Part shown: positions 6,958-31,691 of the stretch, piece by piece
How the letters are laid out: each line of letters opens with the position of its first letter
How positions within the stretch are numbered: the stretch's first letter is position 1
NCBI GenBank assembly: GCA_030041455.1
Contig: JASHNV010000159.1
Coordinates: forward strand, 1-60,994
DNA: 60,994 nt
Direction: 5' to 3'
Origin: Spirochaetia bacterium
GTDB lineage: Bacteria > Spirochaetota > Spirochaetia > DAHUYW01
Position numbers and translations under genes: made by a program
Notes under the pieces: model-generated
Told to the model about the DNA's origin: nothing
The model's input: the letters and a program-made list of their open reading frames with translations, nothing else
Database searches by the model: none

Positions 6958-6985
6958 TTATCATTCATGGTCCGCATGGTATGAT
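6958..6985 (+). promoter_or_regulatory. Weak candidate promoter for the cyclic-nucleotide-binding/TPR gene
   Basis: TTATCA (6958-6963), a 16-nt spacer and TATGAT (6980-6985), in a locally AT-rich stretch between divergent genes. The start would be about 6992, giving a leader of about 40 nt that contains AGGAG before the ATG at 7033. Confidence 0.4.
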
Positions 6986-7032
6986 GTCTGCTGTTCCGTG
7001 GTTCCGGAAGGTCGATATTCACAGGAGCGAAG

Positions 7033-14590: not shown

Positions 14591-14621
14591 TGACTGGAGA
14601 GGGGACTCCGGGAGGATAGGG

Positions 14622-15470
14622 ATGCTTCGAGGCATTTACACGGGCGCGAGCGGCATGGTTGCTCAGATGGAGAAGATGGACATTCTCGCCAACGATATGG
14701 CGAACGTCGATACCACCGGATACAAGCGGGACACCGCGGTTATGAAGTCGTTTCCCGATCTCCTGATCCGGCGCACGAACGACAACGGGGTTTACAAGTT
14801 TCCGTTCGGCTCCGCGGACATCGCGCCGATCGTCGGGAAGCTCGGCACCGGGGTCGAGCTGAACGAAAGCTACACGGTCTTCGAGCAGGGGGCGTTGAAG
14901 CAGTCCGACGACCCCTTCGACCTCGCCCTCGACGGAAGTGGCTTCTTCACCGTCCAGACCGAGAACGGCGAGCGGTACACCCGCAACGGAACCTTCCTGA
15001 TCAACAAGGACGGGCTCCTCGTCGATCAGGCCGGCGAGCCGGTGCTCGGCGAGCACGGCCTCATCTACCTGAAAAAGAACAATTTCGTCGTGGACAAGCA
15101 GGGACGGATCTACCAGAACGCGGACTTCGCCGGCGACCCGAATCGCCTCGTGTCGATCGAGGAGAACGACTGGCGCAACACGCAGCTCGTCGACACGTTG
15201 AAGATCGTGGACTTTCCCGAGAAGCGCTACTTGAAAAAGCAGGGCGACTCGCAGTGGCGCGCGACCGCCGAGTCCGGTCCGCCCGTGCAGGCGGATCTCG
15301 GCGGCACGACGAAGGTCGAGCAGGGCTTCCTCGAGGCTTCGAACGTGAACCCGGTGACCGCGATGGTGAACCTCATCGAGGTGAACCGAGCCTATGAAGC
15401 CAACCAGAAGCTGATTCAGGAGCAGGACGAGCTCGCCGGACGGCTGACGAACGACGCCGTGAAGGTATAG
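14622..15470 (+). CDS. flgF: Flagellar proximal rod protein FlgF (FlhO-like)
   Basis: 282 residues. It has the flg_bb_rod N-terminal motif (YTGASGMVAQMEKMDILANDMANVDTTGYKRD), a central hook-basal body core with the conserved GSGFF (DGSGFFTVQTENGERYTRNG), and the C-terminal rod motif (EVNRAYEANQKLIQEQDELAGRL). It forms part of the periplasmic flagellar rod, exported by the flagellar type III system, so it has no Sec signal. First gene of the flgF-flgG-flgA-flgI-flgJ operon. The RBS GGGAGG and the homology start agree on the ATG at 14622. The 111 in-frame bases upstream are not part of the protein. Confidence 0.95.
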   Translation: MLRGIYTGASGMVAQMEKMDILANDMANVDTTGYKRDTAVMKSFPDLLIRRTNDNGVYKFPFGSADIAPIVGKLGTGVELNESYTVFEQGALKQSDDPFDLALDGSGFFTVQTENGERYTRNGTFLINKDGLLVDQAGEPVLGEHGLIYLKKNNFVVDKQGRIYQNADFAGDPNRLVSIEENDWRNTQLVDTLKIVDFPEKRYLKKQGDSQWRATAESGPPVQADLGGTTKVEQGFLEASNVNPVTAMVNLIEVNRAYEANQKLIQEQDELAGRLTNDAVKV

Positions 15471-15483
15471 GAGATTCTAGATC

Positions 15484-16278
15484 ATGATGAGATCACTGTG
15501 GACCGGCGCGTCCGGGATGATCGGCCAGCAGTTCAACATCGACACGATCGCGAACAACCTGGCGAACGTGAACACGACCGGCTTCAAGAAGAACCGGGCC
15601 GATTTCGAGGATCTGCTCTACCAGACGACCCGGGAGGCGGGAACTCCGGCGACCGAGCTCACCGTCTATCCGACGGGGATCCAGGTCGGTCATGGCGTGA
15701 GGGTCTCGGCGAGCCAGAAAGAGTTCGACCAGGGACCGCTTGAGGCGACCGGAAACGTCTCGGACATGGCGATCGAGGGCGAGGGGTTCTTCCGAGTCCT
15801 GAATATCGACGGGACGTACGCCTACACCCGCGACGGCTCGTTCAAGATCGACAGCAACGGCCAGCTCGTGACCGCCGACGGCTACAAGGTGCTGCCCGAG
15901 ATCGTGCTTCCCCAGAACTTCGTGCGGGACAGCGTGACCATAACCCAGGACGGGAGAGTCACGACGAAGGTCGACGGAAGCGACACGCCGGTCGAGGTCG
16001 GGCAGGTCGAGCTCTACCGGTTCGTGAATCCGGCGGGTCTCCAGGCGGTCGGCGAGAACCTCTACAAGGTCTCCGCCGCGTCGGGCGACGCGATCGCCGG
16101 CCGCCCTGGGTTCGACGGGATGGGCAAGACGATCCAGAAGTTCTTGGAGATGTCCAACGTGTCGGTCGTGAAGGAGATGGTGGACATGATCGTGGCGCAG
16201 CGGGCCTACGAGATGAACTCGAAGACGATTCAGACGTCCGACACGATGCTCGGAATCGCCAACAACCTCAAGCGGTAG
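15484..16278 (+). CDS. flgG: Flagellar distal rod protein FlgG
   Basis: 264 residues, matching the FlgG family length (260-264). The N-terminal rod motif is SLWTGASGMIGQQFNIDTIANNLANVNTTGFKKNRADFEDLLYQ, with the FEDLLYQ extension typical of FlgG. Then come the GEGFFRV core and the C-terminal MVDMIVAQRAYEMNSKTIQTSDTML motif. It builds the distal rod that joins the periplasmic flagellar hook. It begins 13 nt after flgF, with GGAG in the gap. Confidence 0.97.
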   Translation: MMRSLWTGASGMIGQQFNIDTIANNLANVNTTGFKKNRADFEDLLYQTTREAGTPATELTVYPTGIQVGHGVRVSASQKEFDQGPLEATGNVSDMAIEGEGFFRVLNIDGTYAYTRDGSFKIDSNGQLVTADGYKVLPEIVLPQNFVRDSVTITQDGRVTTKVDGSDTPVEVGQVELYRFVNPAGLQAVGENLYKVSAASGDAIAGRPGFDGMGKTIQKFLEMSNVSVVKEMVDMIVAQRAYEMNSKTIQTSDTMLGIANNLKR

Positions 16279-16312: not shown

Positions 16313-17266
16313 ATGATCAGGCCACCGGCCGGAAGCCGCATCGCTCTCCTCGCCGCGGGGATGTTCGCCTCGTCGCTCTCAGGCTACGCCGGAGAGCTCT
16401 ACCTCGCAGGCGGCGTGATCGACGAGACGGCGGTCCACACCTTCGCCGACATCTGCCTCGCGCCGAGAGCGACCGACGACGAGACGCTCGCGGTGCTGCG
16501 CGAGCCCCTTCCGCAGCTCGACAGCCTTCCTTCGCTGATTCCGCCGCGGGTCGTGAAGAGCCTCCTCGCGGCAAAGCTCTCCGAGTCGTTTATTCTCGTG
16601 GGATCGCGCTTCGTCTACATACCCGACACCGTCACCGACCCCGGCGAGCGGACCTTCTACGTGCAGCTGCTTGAGCACCTCGACCGGTCCTTGGGCGACA
16701 AGACGGTCCGCGTCGAGGTCTCCATCCCTTCGGGGGAGGATCTTTCGGGAATCGAGCCGGGGAGCGCGCTTTCCTTCCAGCTCGACTCCGGGGACGAGAG
16801 CCCGCAGACGCTCATCCAAAACCGCTACGTCACCTTCGGCTCAGGCGGCGGGGCCGACCTTGAGACGATCCCCGTCACGATCTCGGCTTTCGGCCTTGCG
16901 CCCTTCGCGCGCCACGACCTGAGCGCGGGCTCCTCGATCGACCGGGGGGACGTCGTCGAGCGGGAGGTGGACCTTTCGAGCATCGAGGGCACCCCGGCGC
17001 GGATCGGCCACGGGAGCTACGACGTCGAGCAGGAGGTCCCCGACGGAGGGGTGCTCCTCTCGGGAGCGGTGCGCGAGCACGACGCGGTGAGCGAGGGGAG
17101 CCCCGTCATGCTCACCTTCGAGCACGGCGCGGTGAGCGTGAGCGTTCCCGGCACCGCCTACGGGGCCGGCGGGCTCGGCGACACGATCCCGGTCGCCACG
17201 CAATCATCCGCGCAGCGCTTTACGGGCGTCATCGAGAGCCCGTCGGAGGTCATCGTTGCAGACTAG
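16313..17266 (+). CDS. flgA: Flagella P-ring assembly chaperone FlgA
   Basis: 317 residues with a signal peptide (to about residue 26, GYA-G). The C-terminal third looks like the SAF domain (about 205-300): ARHDLSAGSSIDRGDVVEREVDLS, then a second repeat with GAVREHDAVSEGSPVMLTFEHGAVSVSVPGTA. FlgA helps FlgI assemble into the P-ring around the rod in the periplasm. The N-terminal part is longer than in enteric FlgA. flgI begins inside its 3' end by 11 nt. The call rests on the SAF-like repeats plus position between flgG and flgI. Confidence 0.88.
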   Translation: MIRPPAGSRIALLAAGMFASSLSGYAGELYLAGGVIDETAVHTFADICLAPRATDDETLAVLREPLPQLDSLPSLIPPRVVKSLLAAKLSESFILVGSRFVYIPDTVTDPGERTFYVQLLEHLDRSLGDKTVRVEVSIPSGEDLSGIEPGSALSFQLDSGDESPQTLIQNRYVTFGSGGGADLETIPVTISAFGLAPFARHDLSAGSSIDRGDVVEREVDLSSIEGTPARIGHGSYDVEQEVPDGGVLLSGAVREHDAVSEGSPVMLTFEHGAVSVSVPGTAYGAGGLGDTIPVATQSSAQRFTGVIESPSEVIVAD

Positions 17267-18338
17267 GGTACGGTCTTGGCTCAGAGCGGGCATGGTCGCC
17301 GCGTTCGCGTGGATCTCGGCCTCCCTCGCCTGCGCGCAGGCGGCTCCCGCTCCTTCCCCTGCCGCAAGCGCGCAGGCGAGCTTCACGGTCCGGCTGAAGG
17401 ACCTCGCCTACGTCCAGGGCGTGCGCGACAATCAGCTCACGGGGTTCGGCCTCGTGACGGGGCTCGCGGGCAAGGGCGACGGCGCGGGATCGAAGCTCCT
17501 GCAGCGGGTCGTCGCGAACCTCGTCACGTCGTTCGGCGTGCAAATAGCGGAGGCGGATCTGAGGAGCCGCAACTGCGCGGTCGTCATGGCGACCGCCGAC
17601 CTTCCGGCCTTCGCGAGGCCCGGAGACACGATTCCGGTGGTGGTGTCGAGCGTCGACGAGGCGACCGACCTTTCGGGGGGCGTGCTGCTCCAGACGAATC
17701 TCAAGGCGGCGAACGGCCAAGTCTACGCCGTGGCGCAGGGTCTCGTCTCGGAGACCGCCGTGAACGGAGTCGCGACCGTCGGCACGATTCCCGCGGGCGC
17801 GATCGTCGAGCAGGGGGTGAGCGCGCCGATCGTGACGGGAGGGAAGGTCTCCATCGTGCTTCGAAACCCCGATTTCATCGACGCGAGCGACGCGGAGTCG
17901 GCGATCGCGAAGGCGTTTCCGAAGGCGCAGGTGAGCGCGGTGGACGCCTCGGTGATCGAGGTCGGGATCCCCGCCGACAAGAGCGGGGATCCCGTCGGGT
18001 TCATCGCGGCGCTTGAATCCCTGACGATCAGCCCCGACCTTTCGGGCAAGGTAGTGGTCAATCCGCGAACCGGCGTGGTCGTCGTGGGGGCGAACGTCCG
18101 CATCGGGAAGGTGGCGGTCTCGTACAAGGATACGCGCGTCGCGATCGGGGCGGACATCACGAGTCCCTACTACGGCCTCGGACAAGCGAAGAACCCCTTC
18201 GTGATCGCGGACACCGCCACGGTCGACGACCTCGTGAAGGTCCTCCAGGACGCAGGCGTTTCGAGCGACACGATCATCGAGATCCTGAAGGCGATCGACC
18301 GGGCGGGCGCGCTGTACGGCAAGCTCGTGGTCATGTAG
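17256..18338 (+). CDS. flgI: Flagellar P-ring protein FlgI
   Basis: 360 residues, normal for FlgI. It has a signal peptide (about 1-27, cleaved near ACA-Q), then the family core: VRLKDLAYVQGVRDNQLTGFGLVTGLAGKGDG, and the C-terminal VKVLQDAGVSSDTIIEILKAI, which is highly conserved. It forms the periplasmic ring around the rod; an L-ring gene (flgH) is absent, as expected for internal flagella. The start is a TTG at 17256, chosen because GGAGG lies 6 nt upstream. The alternative ATG at 17292 has no RBS and would shorten the signal peptide's positive N-region. Confidence 0.95.
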   Translation: MQTRVRSWLRAGMVAAFAWISASLACAQAAPAPSPAASAQASFTVRLKDLAYVQGVRDNQLTGFGLVTGLAGKGDGAGSKLLQRVVANLVTSFGVQIAEADLRSRNCAVVMATADLPAFARPGDTIPVVVSSVDEATDLSGGVLLQTNLKAANGQVYAVAQGLVSETAVNGVATVGTIPAGAIVEQGVSAPIVTGGKVSIVLRNPDFIDASDAESAIAKAFPKAQVSAVDASVIEVGIPADKSGDPVGFIAALESLTISPDLSGKVVVNPRTGVVVVGANVRIGKVAVSYKDTRVAIGADITSPYYGLGQAKNPFVIADTATVDDLVKVLQDAGVSSDTIIEILKAIDRAGALYGKLVVM

Positions 18339-18367: not shown

Positions 18368-18679
18368 ATGGCGATCGATAATCCCGCGCTGATCGGCTAC
18401 GACAACCTCCCGGTCCGAGCGCCGGTTCCCGGCGCCCCGCGCGGCCACTATGACAAGAAGCTCTACGACGCCTGCGTCGACTTCGAGGCCATCTTCGTCA
18501 AGCAGATGCTCGACTCAATGCGAGACACGGTCGAGAAGAACGGTCTGCTCGACGGGGGGTTCGCCGAGGGTATCTACGAGGATATGCTGTACGAGAAATA
18601 CGCCGAGACGATGGCGCACAGCGCGGACTTCGGCATCGCGAGGCTTCTCTACAACCAGCTTGCGAAGCCGAGGGTATGA
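18368..18679 (+). CDS. flgJ: Rod-binding protein (FlgJ N-terminal domain only)
   Basis: 103 residues from the ATG at 18368 (AAGGAG upstream). Residues about 28-98 carry the rod-binding motif (KKLYDACVDFEAIFVKQMLDSMRDTV ... GGFAEGIYEDMLYEKYAETMA). The C-terminal muramidase domain of enteric FlgJ is absent, as in many spirochaetes and alphaproteobacteria, so another enzyme must open the wall for the rod. It caps the growing rod in the periplasm. Last flagellar gene of the operon. Confidence 0.9.
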   Translation: MAIDNPALIGYDNLPVRAPVPGAPRGHYDKKLYDACVDFEAIFVKQMLDSMRDTVEKNGLLDGGFAEGIYEDMLYEKYAETMAHSADFGIARLLYNQLAKPRV

Positions 18680-18707
18680 TTTGCGGGACGCCGAAGCCGG
18701 GATTCGA

Positions 18708-18721
18708 TATGATAAATCATA
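18708..18721. promoter_or_regulatory. Palindrome upstream of the sigma-54 element
   Basis: TATGAT-AA-ATCATA, perfect 6-bp arms, about 140 bp upstream of the predicted sigma-54 start of the sigma-factor gene. The position suits an enhancer-binding site, but no protein is known. Confidence 0.4.
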
Positions 18722-18741
18722 CATTTCCGACCCGCCCGCAT

Positions 18742-18758
18742 CCTCCGCCCCTCGGAGG
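18742..18758. terminator. Hairpin after the flagellar operon
   Basis: CCTCCG-CCCCT-CGGAGG forms a perfect 6-bp stem 63 nt after the flgJ stop. There is no U-tract, so termination strength is doubtful. It could also be an operator. Confidence 0.4.
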
Positions 18759-18828
18759 CCTGAAGGTAATTCGTTAGCTCTCTGAGAGTTGCTGTTTCCC
18801 GCCAATTCGATAAATCCATTCCGAGCGA

Positions 18829-18844
18829 TGGCACGGTTCCTGCT
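18829..18844 (+). promoter_or_regulatory. Sigma-54 (RpoN) promoter of the RpoS-like sigma gene
   Basis: TGGCACG-N4-CTGCT against the consensus TGGCACG-N4-TTGC(A/T). The -24 GG (18830-18831) and -12 GC (18842-18843) have the obligatory 12-nt step. The predicted start is about 18855, directly before GAGGAG and 14 nt before the ATG at 18869, an ideal leader. No sigma-70 promoter is visible nearby. Confidence 0.75.
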
Positions 18845-18868
18845 GAACTTAGGTCGAGGAGCCCCGCC

Positions 18869-19705
18869 ATGAAAACGATGAGGGATAGGAGCGAAGACTC
18901 TCTCCGGGAATACTTCGATCAGATCAAGAAGACGCCGCTCTTGACCTTCGAGGAAGAGCTGAGCCTCTCGCGGCGCATTCAGCGCGGCGACGAGGCCGCG
19001 CGCGCGACGTTGATCGAGGCGAACCTGCGGCTTGTCGTGAAGATCGCGAAATCCTACGTCACCTCCGACGTGGGCTTTCTCGACATCGTCCAGGAGGGCA
19101 ACCTCGGCTTGATCAAGGCGGCCTCCAAGTACGACTACCGGCGGAACGTGCGCTTCTCCACGTACGCCGCCTGGTGGATCAAGCAGTCGATCGTGCGCTC
19201 GCTGTCGAACAAGAGGCGGGCGATCCGCCTTCCGCACCGCAAGGAGGAGGCGTTGAAGAAGATTCAACGGACCTACTTTACCCTCAGCCAGGAGCTCCTG
19301 CGAAAGCCGTCGGTCAAGGAGATCGCCGGAGAGCTCAGGATGAGCGAGAGCGACGTCGTGGCCGTCCTCAGCGTCTCGAGCGCCGTCGCGTCGCTCGATA
19401 CCTCGCTCGGCGGCGACGGCGGCACGCTCCTCGACCTCTGCGCGGACAACTCGTACAATCCGGACCGCGAGCTTTTCGACAACGACATTCGGGAGGAGAC
19501 CCGGCGCTTTCTCGAGCACCTGCTCGAAAAGGAGCGCCAGATCCTCCTCTACCGCTTCGCTTTCTACGGCGGGAAGAAATACACGCTGAAAAAGATCGGC
19601 GAAGAGCTCGGGATCTCCCCGGAGACGGTGCGCCAGATCGAGATGCGAGCGATCAAGAAGCTCCGCGAGCACGCCGAGGAGCTGCGGGAGTACGTCTACA
19701 ACTGA
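18869..19705 (+). CDS. rpoS: Alternative sigma-70-family factor, RpoS-like (group 2)
   Basis: 278 residues. There is no region 1.1. Region 1.2 is at about 9-45 (DSLREYFDQIKKTPLLTFEEELSLSRRI). Region 2 runs to about 115 with the core-binding and -10-recognition helices (LIEANLRLVVKIAKSY; FSTYAAWWIKQSIVRSL). Region 3 is at about 120-200. Region 4 is at about 205-275 with the -35 helix-turn-helix (YTLKKIGEELGISPETVRQIEMRAIKKLRE). It directs RNA polymerase to a special promoter set. In Borrelia, rpoS follows flgI in the same way and is switched on by sigma-54. Here a sigma-54 element sits immediately upstream. The RpoS name rests on synteny and this control. By sequence alone it is a group 2 sigma factor. 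Confidence 0.88.
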   Translation: MKTMRDRSEDSLREYFDQIKKTPLLTFEEELSLSRRIQRGDEAARATLIEANLRLVVKIAKSYVTSDVGFLDIVQEGNLGLIKAASKYDYRRNVRFSTYAAWWIKQSIVRSLSNKRRAIRLPHRKEEALKKIQRTYFTLSQELLRKPSVKEIAGELRMSESDVVAVLSVSSAVASLDTSLGGDGGTLLDLCADNSYNPDRELFDNDIREETRRFLEHLLEKERQILLYRFAFYGGKKYTLKKIGEELGISPETVRQIEMRAIKKLREHAEELREYVYN

Positions 19706-19770: not shown

Positions 19771-20745
19771 GTGGAACCCGCACGAAATCCCCCCTCGGCG
19801 AGGCGCGGCACGAGGCGCCTCTGGCCCCTGTACGCGCTTCTCGTCGCGATCGTCGTTCTCCTCATCGCCATCGCGGGCTCCCTGCCGAGACCAAACCCTC
19901 CGCCGGTCGCGCTTCCCGACCTCGGGCTCGGAGCCACGCCGCGAGGGGAGACGGCGGAGCGGAGCCGGGAGCCGTCGGGCTCGATCGAGAGGAGCCCGGT
20001 GCTTCCCCGGCTCCCTCCCCTTCCCGGGAGCTCCTCGATCCGGACGGCCCGCTCGGCCGCCCTGGCGGGCGCGCTCGTCTTCGTCATCGACGACGTCGGA
20101 AACAACCTCGACGAGCTCGAAGCGTTCCTTCGCATACCCGATCCGCTCACCTTCTCGGTGCTCCCGCGGCTCCCCGACACGAAGGCGGCCTACGAGCGGA
20201 TCGTTCAAGCCGGAAAGCAGGCGATCCTCCACCAGCCGATGGAGGCCGAGAGCGCCGCGAGCCTCGGGCCGGGAGCGATCCTCGTGTCGATGGGGGAGGG
20301 AGAGATCGACGCCGCGCTCGCGGAGAATCTCGAGGGGATGCCCGAGATCACGTGGATGAACAACCATGAAGGATCGAAGGCCACGGCGGATCCCCGCACG
20401 ATGGGATACGTTCTCGCCTACCTGCGCGCGCGGGGCATGCACTTCCTCGACAGCCGCACGACGCAGGACTCCGCCGTCGAGTCGGTGTCCTCGGCGCTCG
20501 GGCTCCGGTACTACAGCCGGAACGGTCCGTTTCTCGACGACCAGGTCGAGCGGAACGCGATTCTTTCCGAGATCGACGCGGGTCTCGCCGTCGCGCGGAA
20601 GGAGGGATACGCGGTCATGATCGGCCACGTGTGGGACCGGGAGCTGCCGGGAATCTTGAGCGAGCGCATTCCCGAGCTCCGCGGCGAAGGCTTCAGGCTT
20701 GAGGAGCTCTCGGCGCTCGGCGACGAAGGAGGGACAGCGCAATGA
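19771..20745 (+). CDS. Divergent polysaccharide deacetylase family protein (YibQ-like)
   Basis: 324 residues with a GTG start at 19771. An N-terminal membrane anchor (about 18-37) and a Pro/Arg-rich linker lead to a domain (about 98-315) of the divergent polysaccharide deacetylase family: LVFVIDDVGNNLDELEAFL, LTFSVLPRLPDTKAAYE, ILHQPMEAE, WMNNHEGSKATADPRTM, HFLDSRTT and MIGHVW are its conserved strand motifs. The NodB-like fold suggests action on envelope glycans, but the activity of the family is not established. Its stop overlaps the tsaD start (ATGA). The same order (sigma factor, this family, tsaD) is what I recall from Borrelia. Confidence 0.88.
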   Translation: MEPARNPPSARRGTRRLWPLYALLVAIVVLLIAIAGSLPRPNPPPVALPDLGLGATPRGETAERSREPSGSIERSPVLPRLPPLPGSSSIRTARSAALAGALVFVIDDVGNNLDELEAFLRIPDPLTFSVLPRLPDTKAAYERIVQAGKQAILHQPMEAESAASLGPGAILVSMGEGEIDAALAENLEGMPEITWMNNHEGSKATADPRTMGYVLAYLRARGMHFLDSRTTQDSAVESVSSALGLRYYSRNGPFLDDQVERNAILSEIDAGLAVARKEGYAVMIGHVWDRELPGILSERIPELRGEGFRLEELSALGDEGGTAQ

Positions 20746-21755
20746 ACGTGCTCGGCATCGAGAGCTCCTGCGACGAGTGCTCGGCTTCGGTCGTCCTCGA
20801 CGGGAAGAGGGTCATGAGCAACGTCGTGGCGACCCAAATCGAGATCCACCGTCCCTATAGCGGCGTGGTCCCGGAGATCGCCTCGCGCACCCACACCGAG
20901 TGGATCCTCCCGGTCGTGAAGCGGGCGCTGTCCGACGCGGGCGTGAGCGAGCGGGAGATCGACGGGATCGCGGTGACGAGCCGCCCCGGGCTCGTCGGCT
21001 CCCTCCTCGTCGGCCTTTCGTTCGCGAAGGGCTACGCGTACAGCCTGGGGGTGCCCTTCGTGGGGCTCGACCACATGCTCGCCCACCTCTACGCGCCGCA
21101 ACTTGAGCACGACATCGAGTATCCGTTCGTCGGGCTCCTCGTCTCCGGCGGGCACACGATCCTGTGCGTCGCCAGCGGGGTGGACGACGTCGCGGTCATG
21201 GGAACGACGATCGACGACGCGTGCGGGGAGGCGTTCGACAAGGTCGCGAAGCACTACGGCTTCGGTTTTCCCGGCGGGGTCGCGATCGACCGTCTCGCGC
21301 GGGGCGGAGACTCGCGGGCCTTTTCGTTCCCGCTTCCCTCCCTGCACAAGGGCGACCATCGCTACGACGTCTCCTATTCAGGGCTCAAGACCGCGACGAT
21401 CAATCAGCTCGACCAGTTCTGGAACCCGGGCTACGAGAAGAGCGCCGAGAACATCGCCGCCTCGTTTCAAAAGGCGGCGGTGGAGATTCTCCTCTCGCGC
21501 CTCGAAAAGGTCGTGGAGGACACGGGCCTCAAGCGGGTCGTGGCCGGAGGGGGCGTCGCGGCGAACTCCCATCTGCGGGAGCGTCTCGCCGCGCGCTCGG
21601 ACCTCGACGTCCGCTTTCCCTCGCTGAAGCTCTGTACCGACAACGGCGCCATGGTGGCGGGGCTTGGGTACCACTACCTCGCTCGCGGCGAGCGCTCGGG
21701 CCTCGGCGAGAACGCCTCGGCGCGCGTCGCGCGCTTCAGACGGACCTATCCGTAG
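20742..21755 (+). CDS. tsaD: tRNA N6-adenosine threonylcarbamoyltransferase TsaD
   Basis: 337 residues, the standard length. It catalyses the last step of t6A37 formation on ANN-reading tRNAs, such as the tRNA-Thr in this window. Seen motifs: LGIESSCDECSASVV at the N-terminus, the metal-binding H-x3-H (GLDHMLAHLYAP), VSGGHTILC, YSGLKTA and the C-terminal VAGGGVAANSHLRERL plus CTDNGAMVAGLG. Cytoplasmic. Translationally coupled to the preceding gene by a 4-nt overlap. Confidence 0.98.
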   Translation: MNVLGIESSCDECSASVVLDGKRVMSNVVATQIEIHRPYSGVVPEIASRTHTEWILPVVKRALSDAGVSEREIDGIAVTSRPGLVGSLLVGLSFAKGYAYSLGVPFVGLDHMLAHLYAPQLEHDIEYPFVGLLVSGGHTILCVASGVDDVAVMGTTIDDACGEAFDKVAKHYGFGFPGGVAIDRLARGGDSRAFSFPLPSLHKGDHRYDVSYSGLKTATINQLDQFWNPGYEKSAENIAASFQKAAVEILLSRLEKVVEDTGLKRVVAGGGVAANSHLRERLAARSDLDVRFPSLKLCTDNGAMVAGLGYHYLARGERSGLGENASARVARFRRTYP

Positions 21756-31674: not shown

Positions 31675-31691
31675 TTGGCATGACGATTGCA
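31675..31691 (+). promoter_or_regulatory. Sigma-54 (RpoN) promoter of gltBD
   Basis: TTGGCATG-N4-TTGCA differs from the consensus TGGCACG-N4-TTGCA at one position. GG (31677-31678) and GC (31689-31690) are 12 nt apart, as required. The predicted start, about 31702, gives a 42-nt leader to the gltB ATG. Sigma-54 control of glutamate synthase fits nitrogen regulation. Confidence 0.72.

Follow-up and report, generated by a model that had tools for sequence, protein, structure and literature searches.

A sigma-54-type promoter element before an orthologue of Borrelia rpoS points to an RpoN-to-sigma relay older than Borrelia

Sigma-54 promoters depend on an AAA+ enhancer-binding protein, which is required to open the promoter complex. 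The Rrp2-RpoN-RpoS pathway, in which such a promoter drives the expression of a second sigma factor, has been studied as a speciality of Borrelia. The transcription start of Borrelia rpoS was mapped 14 bp after the GC doublet of its sigma-54 element (PMC1976401). No binding of Borrelia Rrp2 was seen in the 238 bp upstream of rpoS, and the protein acted independently of upstream DNA (PMC1976401, through which the conclusion of Blevins et al. 2009 is cited here; the title of that study is cited through PMC11109971). Furthermore, the name of Borrelia RpoS (BB0771) is disputed, as described in PMC6719511, which cites Chiang and Schellhorn 2010 and Hengge 2011.

The window analysed here, i.e. the whole stretch of 60,994 nucleotides, belongs to a MAG of a Spirochaetia bacterium (199 contigs, 3.39 Mb, 95% complete, 4% contamination) and contains a gene for a group-2 sigma factor downstream of flagellar genes (Table 1). 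The order flgF-flgG-flgI-flgJ-sigma-deacetylase-tsaD is shared with five Borrelia/Borreliella loci, whose label was deduced from the locus order (as in PMC1976401) and from the single Rrp2 of the two genomes checked; Treponema-like labels are deduced, too. A gap of 189 bp separates the flgJ stop codon, which ends at 18679, from the ATG of the sigma gene at 18869. This gap contains ATGGCACGGTTCCTGCT (18828-18844), a canonical sigma-54 -24/-12 element consisting of T at 18829, GG at 18830-31, CACG up to 18835, the N4 spacer GTTC and CTGCT at 18840-44, which ends 25 nt before the ATG. The GG and GC doublets lie 10 nt apart and have flanks of the TGGCAC/TTGC type, and the G-to-G step from the -24 to the -12 doublet (18830 to 18842) is 12 nt. 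These letters and positions bear out the original prediction, which had named TGGCACG-N4-CTGCT with a 12-nt GG-to-GC step and a start just before GAGGAG, 14 nt before the ATG; we predict the start at around 18855, and the distance mapped in Borrelia (PMC1976401) would place it at around 18857. The claim that the gap lacks sigma-70 hexamers also holds, as a consensus scan of 18600-18900 found no sigma-70 promoter and the lone TATGAT at 18709-14 is one half of a palindrome described below. The pattern TGGCAC-N6-TGC is rare, with 16 matches in the 3.39-Mb genome versus 63 for the reversed control pattern, and a chance match in the one gap before the sigma gene is therefore unlikely. The sigma gene is probably transcribed from this element.

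Table 1. Features of the sigma gene locus (positions in the window).
Feature	Position	Strand	Basis or remark
flgF-like rod protein	14619..15470	+	orthologues at same position in relatives
flgG	15484..16278	+	Pfam; synteny
flgA-like P-ring chaperone	16313..17266	+	Pfam PF13144
flgI (P-ring protein)	17256..18338	+	NCBIfam NF003676, below cut-off; same order in Borrelia (PMC1976401)
flgJ-like rod-binding protein gene	18371..18679	+	Pfam PF10135
degenerate palindrome copy GATATGATAAATCATACA (8/10), candidate enhancer	18706..18723	+	contains perfect inverted repeat TATGAT-AA-ATCATA
second, weaker conserved block TAATTCGTTAG...	18767..18792	+	-52 to -30 of -24 element in relatives; TAATTcCTTT...AATTA in relatives
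sigma-54 (-24/-12) promoter element TGGCACG-N4-CTGCT	18829..18844	+	sequence; kept in 68/70 orthologous loci
predicted transcription start	18855..18857	+	12-14 nt downstream of GC doublet
Shine-Dalgarno GAGGAG	18856..18861	+	sequence
group-2 sigma-70-family factor, 278 aa, regions 1.2, 2, 3, 4; orthologue of Borrelia RpoS	18869..19705	+	Pfam/NCBIfam, tree, synteny
divergent polysaccharide deacetylase, conserved downstream neighbour	19771..20745	+	Pfam PF04748; synteny
tsaD-like gene, conserved downstream neighbour	20742..21755	+	named from sequence; synteny

Orthologues of the sigma gene were collected with their upstream DNA from named contigs and by a scan of 296 phylum genomes, and the presence of the element played no part in choosing the loci. 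This search also caught RpoD and other paralogues, which were separated with the help of a tree. Using a fixed sigma-54 matrix, which is our own approximation of the published consensus, the element lies above the threshold in 68/70 orthologous Spirochaetota loci, some of which are near-duplicates, always with exact GG/GC spacing and usually at most 80 bp from the gene. Control windows of the same loci pass the threshold in only 7 of 3437 cases (0.2%), and the RpoD loci of the same genomes reach matrix scores of 2-6 and have no comparable element. The 68 loci include the five Borrelia/Borreliella loci, which carry TTGGCATGATTTTTGCA or TTGGCACAATTTTTGCA. L143 has a weakened element, and L167 is a second copy, the first copy of the same genome (L135) having the element. 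Loci L168-L172 (families f23 and f42) have mostly good elements and were left out of this count, being outside the supported clade; L174, L176, L178-L180 and L183, which have no element, turned out to be other sigma lineages or ambiguous rows. Conservation among relatives, which the original prediction had made a check of its claim, therefore extends across the phylum and to the same locus in Borrelia, and it rules out a chance match of the element. Among 62 group-2 sigma loci of Omnitrophota and Verrucomicrobia, no comparable element was found near the gene, with a few distant matches (L058, L087, L105) scoring 13-14. In Verrucomicrobia (Opitutae and relatives, loci L056-L106), TTGGAACG-N6-GCT recurs far upstream of group-2 sigma genes, at a rather constant distance of about -190 to -245, and looks like a sigma-54 element whose -12 half deviates.

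Both trans-acting factors that the original prediction had asked for are encoded in the genome, namely rpoN and an enhancer-binding protein, here of the Rrp2 type. The one rpoN is intact and codes for all three domains (AID, core-binding and DNA-binding), and rpoN is found in 283/296 phylum genomes. There are ten strong AAA matches to enhancer-binding proteins, some of the GAFTGA type and some with GAFTDA/GAYTDA. One of the proteins, L003 on contig C95, consists of REC, AAA, lid and Fis-type HTH (HTH8) domains and shares 53-55% identity along the entire protein with the sole enhancer-binding protein in each of two Borrelia-like genomes, compared to around 40% for the next-best protein of the same genome. 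Orthologues with 67-70% identity are found in three other genomes, and the recognition helix of Rrp2 (IGRKTLH.K) is shared. A PAS histidine kinase gene lies immediately upstream of L003 and ends at its start, which corresponds to the hk2-rrp2 arrangement of Borrelia (PMC1976401). This Rrp2 orthologue is the best candidate activator of the sigma gene. In five small, Borrelia-like genomes (G077, G107, G256, G238 and G286), the rpoN match is split, very weak or missing, which may reflect damage, a frameshift or an assembly error; the same genomes keep the sigma-54 element before rpoS (loci L158, L159 and L225-L227).

An alignment of close relatives revealed conserved letters upstream of the sigma-54 element. 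When all 5-mers at all spacings were counted in 35 loci, TGTAT-N8-ATACA was the top dyad, with exact copies in 18/35 loci as compared to 5/35 for the next-ranked dyad and at most 4 in shuffles. Outside Borrelia, most loci have the palindrome around 100 bp ahead of the sigma-54 element; locus L045 of Gracilinema caldarium, for instance, contains both. At least 9/10 letters are matched in 19/29 loci of the class Spirochaetia, mostly with the left edge between -100 and -117 relative to the -24 element, in 10/11 Treponema-like loci at a more variable distance, and in 7/20 loci of other classes; dinucleotide shuffles lead one to expect 0.5, 0.2 and 0.3 loci, respectively. Since the motif was first spotted in the Spirochaetia set, the latter two groups are the fairer test. 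None of the five Borrelia loci contains the palindrome. In the window, it is degenerate, matching at a level that around 7% of control windows reach, and the same-genus genome (L033) has a 9/10 copy at the same place. The window copy lies at -123. Compared to relatives, it is displaced outwards by around 10 bp, or one helical turn, as is a second conserved block, which in relatives keeps a fixed distance from the -24 element; the column conservation of this block, when anchored, is above that of 2000 random shifts.

We read the palindrome as an ancestral enhancer, which may be the binding site of Rrp2 and which Borrelia would have lost rather than never had. The most serious alternative accepts the sigma-54 promoter and assigns the palindrome to another regulator, either a different enhancer-binding protein or a repressor that links the sigma gene with the flg operon, with Rrp2 working enhancer-free everywhere as it does in Borrelia. 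This is a tenable though less favoured explanation, which draws on the lack of Rrp2 binding and of a need for upstream DNA in Borrelia (PMC1976401), on the number and variety of AAA matches in the genome and on the absence of the palindrome near the enhancer-binding-protein genes of G195. In addition, the exact-match sites inspected elsewhere in the genomes of relatives do not precede convincing sigma-54 promoters, and a look before other sigma-54 promoters or enhancer-binding-protein genes yielded no convincing copy. On the other hand, a location around 100 bp upstream of -24 is what one commonly finds for sigma-54 enhancers, as is the variable distance seen in Treponema-like genomes. Moreover, Rrp2 has a conserved recognition helix, and Borrelia, for which enhancer-independence was shown, does not have the palindrome.

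A further alternative holds that the element arose by chance or is a fossil, and that most expression of the sigma gene stems from an unseen promoter or from transcripts of the flgF-flgJ operon running on into it. Read-through would be compatible with the position of the sigma gene, which comes after the flg genes in the same orientation, and with the consensus scan of 18600-18900, which detected no terminator, the flgJ-sigma gap included. This alternative as a whole is nevertheless very improbable, as the element is conserved in 68/70 loci, all with the same GG/GC core but with differing spacer letters, and is retained where flgA and flgI were not detected.

The sigma factor itself, which the original prediction had called RpoS-like, deserves the name in the Borrelia sense, as tree and synteny agree, and not as a proteobacterial RpoS, against which scores, tree and AU test speak. 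In a mixture-model tree of 74 proteins (IQ-TREE, root not inferred), 44 spirochaete sigmas, comprising those of the window, Treponema-like genomes, Borrelia and other classes, fall on one side of a branch with a support of 97/90 and 98% of bootstraps; RpoD, a second spirochaete sigma, E. coli RpoS and the factors of Verrucomicrobia and Omnitrophota fall on the other. Although the Borrelia RpoS branch is long, the conserved neighbours to the left and right of the gene support the grouping, making the window gene an orthologue of Borrelia rpoS at the same flg-tsaD locus. A joint clade of Borrelia and E. coli RpoS is rejected (p 0.012). With proteobacterial RpoS (sigma-38), the window sigma shares the group-2 architecture and 42-43% identity, but it differs in regions 3.0 and 4.2, which read RLPHRKE and SPETVRQIE in the window and KVPYRKE and SSETVRQIE in Borrelia; these signatures are shared by the two and are also unlike RpoD. 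At the C-terminus, where RpoS has a 16-residue extension, the window sigma has a short tail without clear similarity. Inferred Borrelia RpoS likewise stays under the RpoS cut-off (214 vs 378.7). Least likely of all is that the gene is a true proteobacterial-family rpoS, which would reduce the finding to a classical rpoS under sigma-54. Although RpoS models and structures are the best NCBIfam and PDB matches, the NCBIfam scores fall well below the cut-offs (251.6 vs 394 and 246.8 vs 378.7), the tree separates the lineages, the AU test rejects E. coli RpoS forced into the spirochaete group (p 0.007) and the column of E. coli K173 in region 3.0 holds a Glu. Judged by its sequence, the "RpoS" of the window is a member of a spirochaete sigma lineage, and for the disputed BB0771 the data speak for a duplication independent of proteobacterial RpoS.

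A paralogous sigma-70-family gene of the same genome (C95:77214-78017; L163, L187, L242) is preceded by a near-perfect sigma-54 element, and its orthologues occur in 89/118 genomes of the class Spirochaetia. At 29/30 of these second sigma loci (including L243-L271), the sigma-54 threshold is passed, the 30th lying narrowly below, as compared to 0/466 control windows, and the element is located 63-139 bp upstream of the gene in 29/30 loci. The TGTAT-N8-ATACA palindrome is absent there, and a 5-mer dyad count found no strong shared dyad upstream of the gene. In the sampled Borrelia genomes, the second sigma gene is absent. RpoN thus probably controls two sigma factors in many spirochaetes.

The conserved element, rpoN with an Rrp2 orthologue and the grouping with Borrelia RpoS in the tree together indicate that an RpoN-to-"RpoS" relay predates Borrelia, as the original prediction had proposed and as orthology and synteny support. 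What we observed comprises the conserved element, a sigma gene that is orthologous and syntenic to Borrelia rpoS, the presence of rpoN and of the Rrp2 orthologue, and a palindrome conserved outside Borrelia. It is likely, in our judgement, that these parts form a relay from sigma-54 to the sigma factor that is ancestral to most Spirochaetota, with Rrp2 acting via the palindrome. In this relay, the PAS histidine kinase would phosphorylate the neighbouring Rrp2 orthologue, which would act from TGTAT-N8-ATACA around 100 bp upstream and open the complex of RNA polymerase and RpoN at the -24/-12 element; the sigma factor so made would redirect the polymerase to its own regulon. Borrelia would have inherited the relay and lost the palindrome; Rrp2, its only activator, works there without an enhancer. 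The proposed relay has in common with the cascade of Borrelia burgdorferi that the orthologous sigma gene follows flgI-flgJ and is preceded by a sigma-54 element, that rpoN is present and that a histidine kinase gene directly precedes the Rrp2 orthologue. Unlike Borrelia with its one enhancer-binding protein, the environmental relatives have around ten strong matches, an enhancer-like palindrome, which is degenerate in the window, and a second sigma factor predicted to be sigma-54-driven. Sigma-54 promoters of the NtrC/glnA type likewise combine a -24/-12 element and an AAA+ activator with a palindromic site, found here around 100 bp upstream in relatives; in contrast to them, the gene driven here encodes a sigma-70-family factor in its turn, and the palindrome appears almost private to the locus.

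More broadly, and with only modest confidence, we favour a scenario in which the ancestor of the majority of Spirochaetota possessed a sigma-54 hub with the enhancer TGTAT-N8-ATACA and an Rrp2-type activator driving a spirochaete-specific group-2 sigma, RpoN also drives a second sigma in the class Spirochaetia, and Borrelia kept only one arm, lost the enhancer and made of it the tick-to-mammal switch. The Borrelia pathway would then belong to a sigma family that extends across the spirochaetes and whose wiring is conserved, and the enhancer-independence of Borrelia Rrp2 would be a derived loss and, as such, testable in evolutionary terms. Furthermore, the dispute on RpoS naming (PMC6719511) would gain an answer, namely a separate lineage, and culturable, harmless relatives would offer a way to find the original signal and regulon. 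A search of the open-access literature found no report of such a relay outside Borrelia.

Further sigma-54 targets of the genome were sampled by pattern. Among the 16 pattern matches, elements precede genes for Hsp20 (L025), glutamine synthetase (L023) and a periplasmic sugar-binding-type protein (L027). Such elements, together with one before a glutamate-synthase-like gene, are as expected of a working RpoN system. The latter, TTGGCATGACGATTGCA (31675-31691), is the best sigma-54 match in the window and lies just before a long ORF resembling the glutamate synthase large subunit. A weaker sigma-54-like match, ATGGTATGATGTCTGCT (6976-6992), is located 57 bp before an ORF resembling a cyclic-nucleotide-binding-domain protein.
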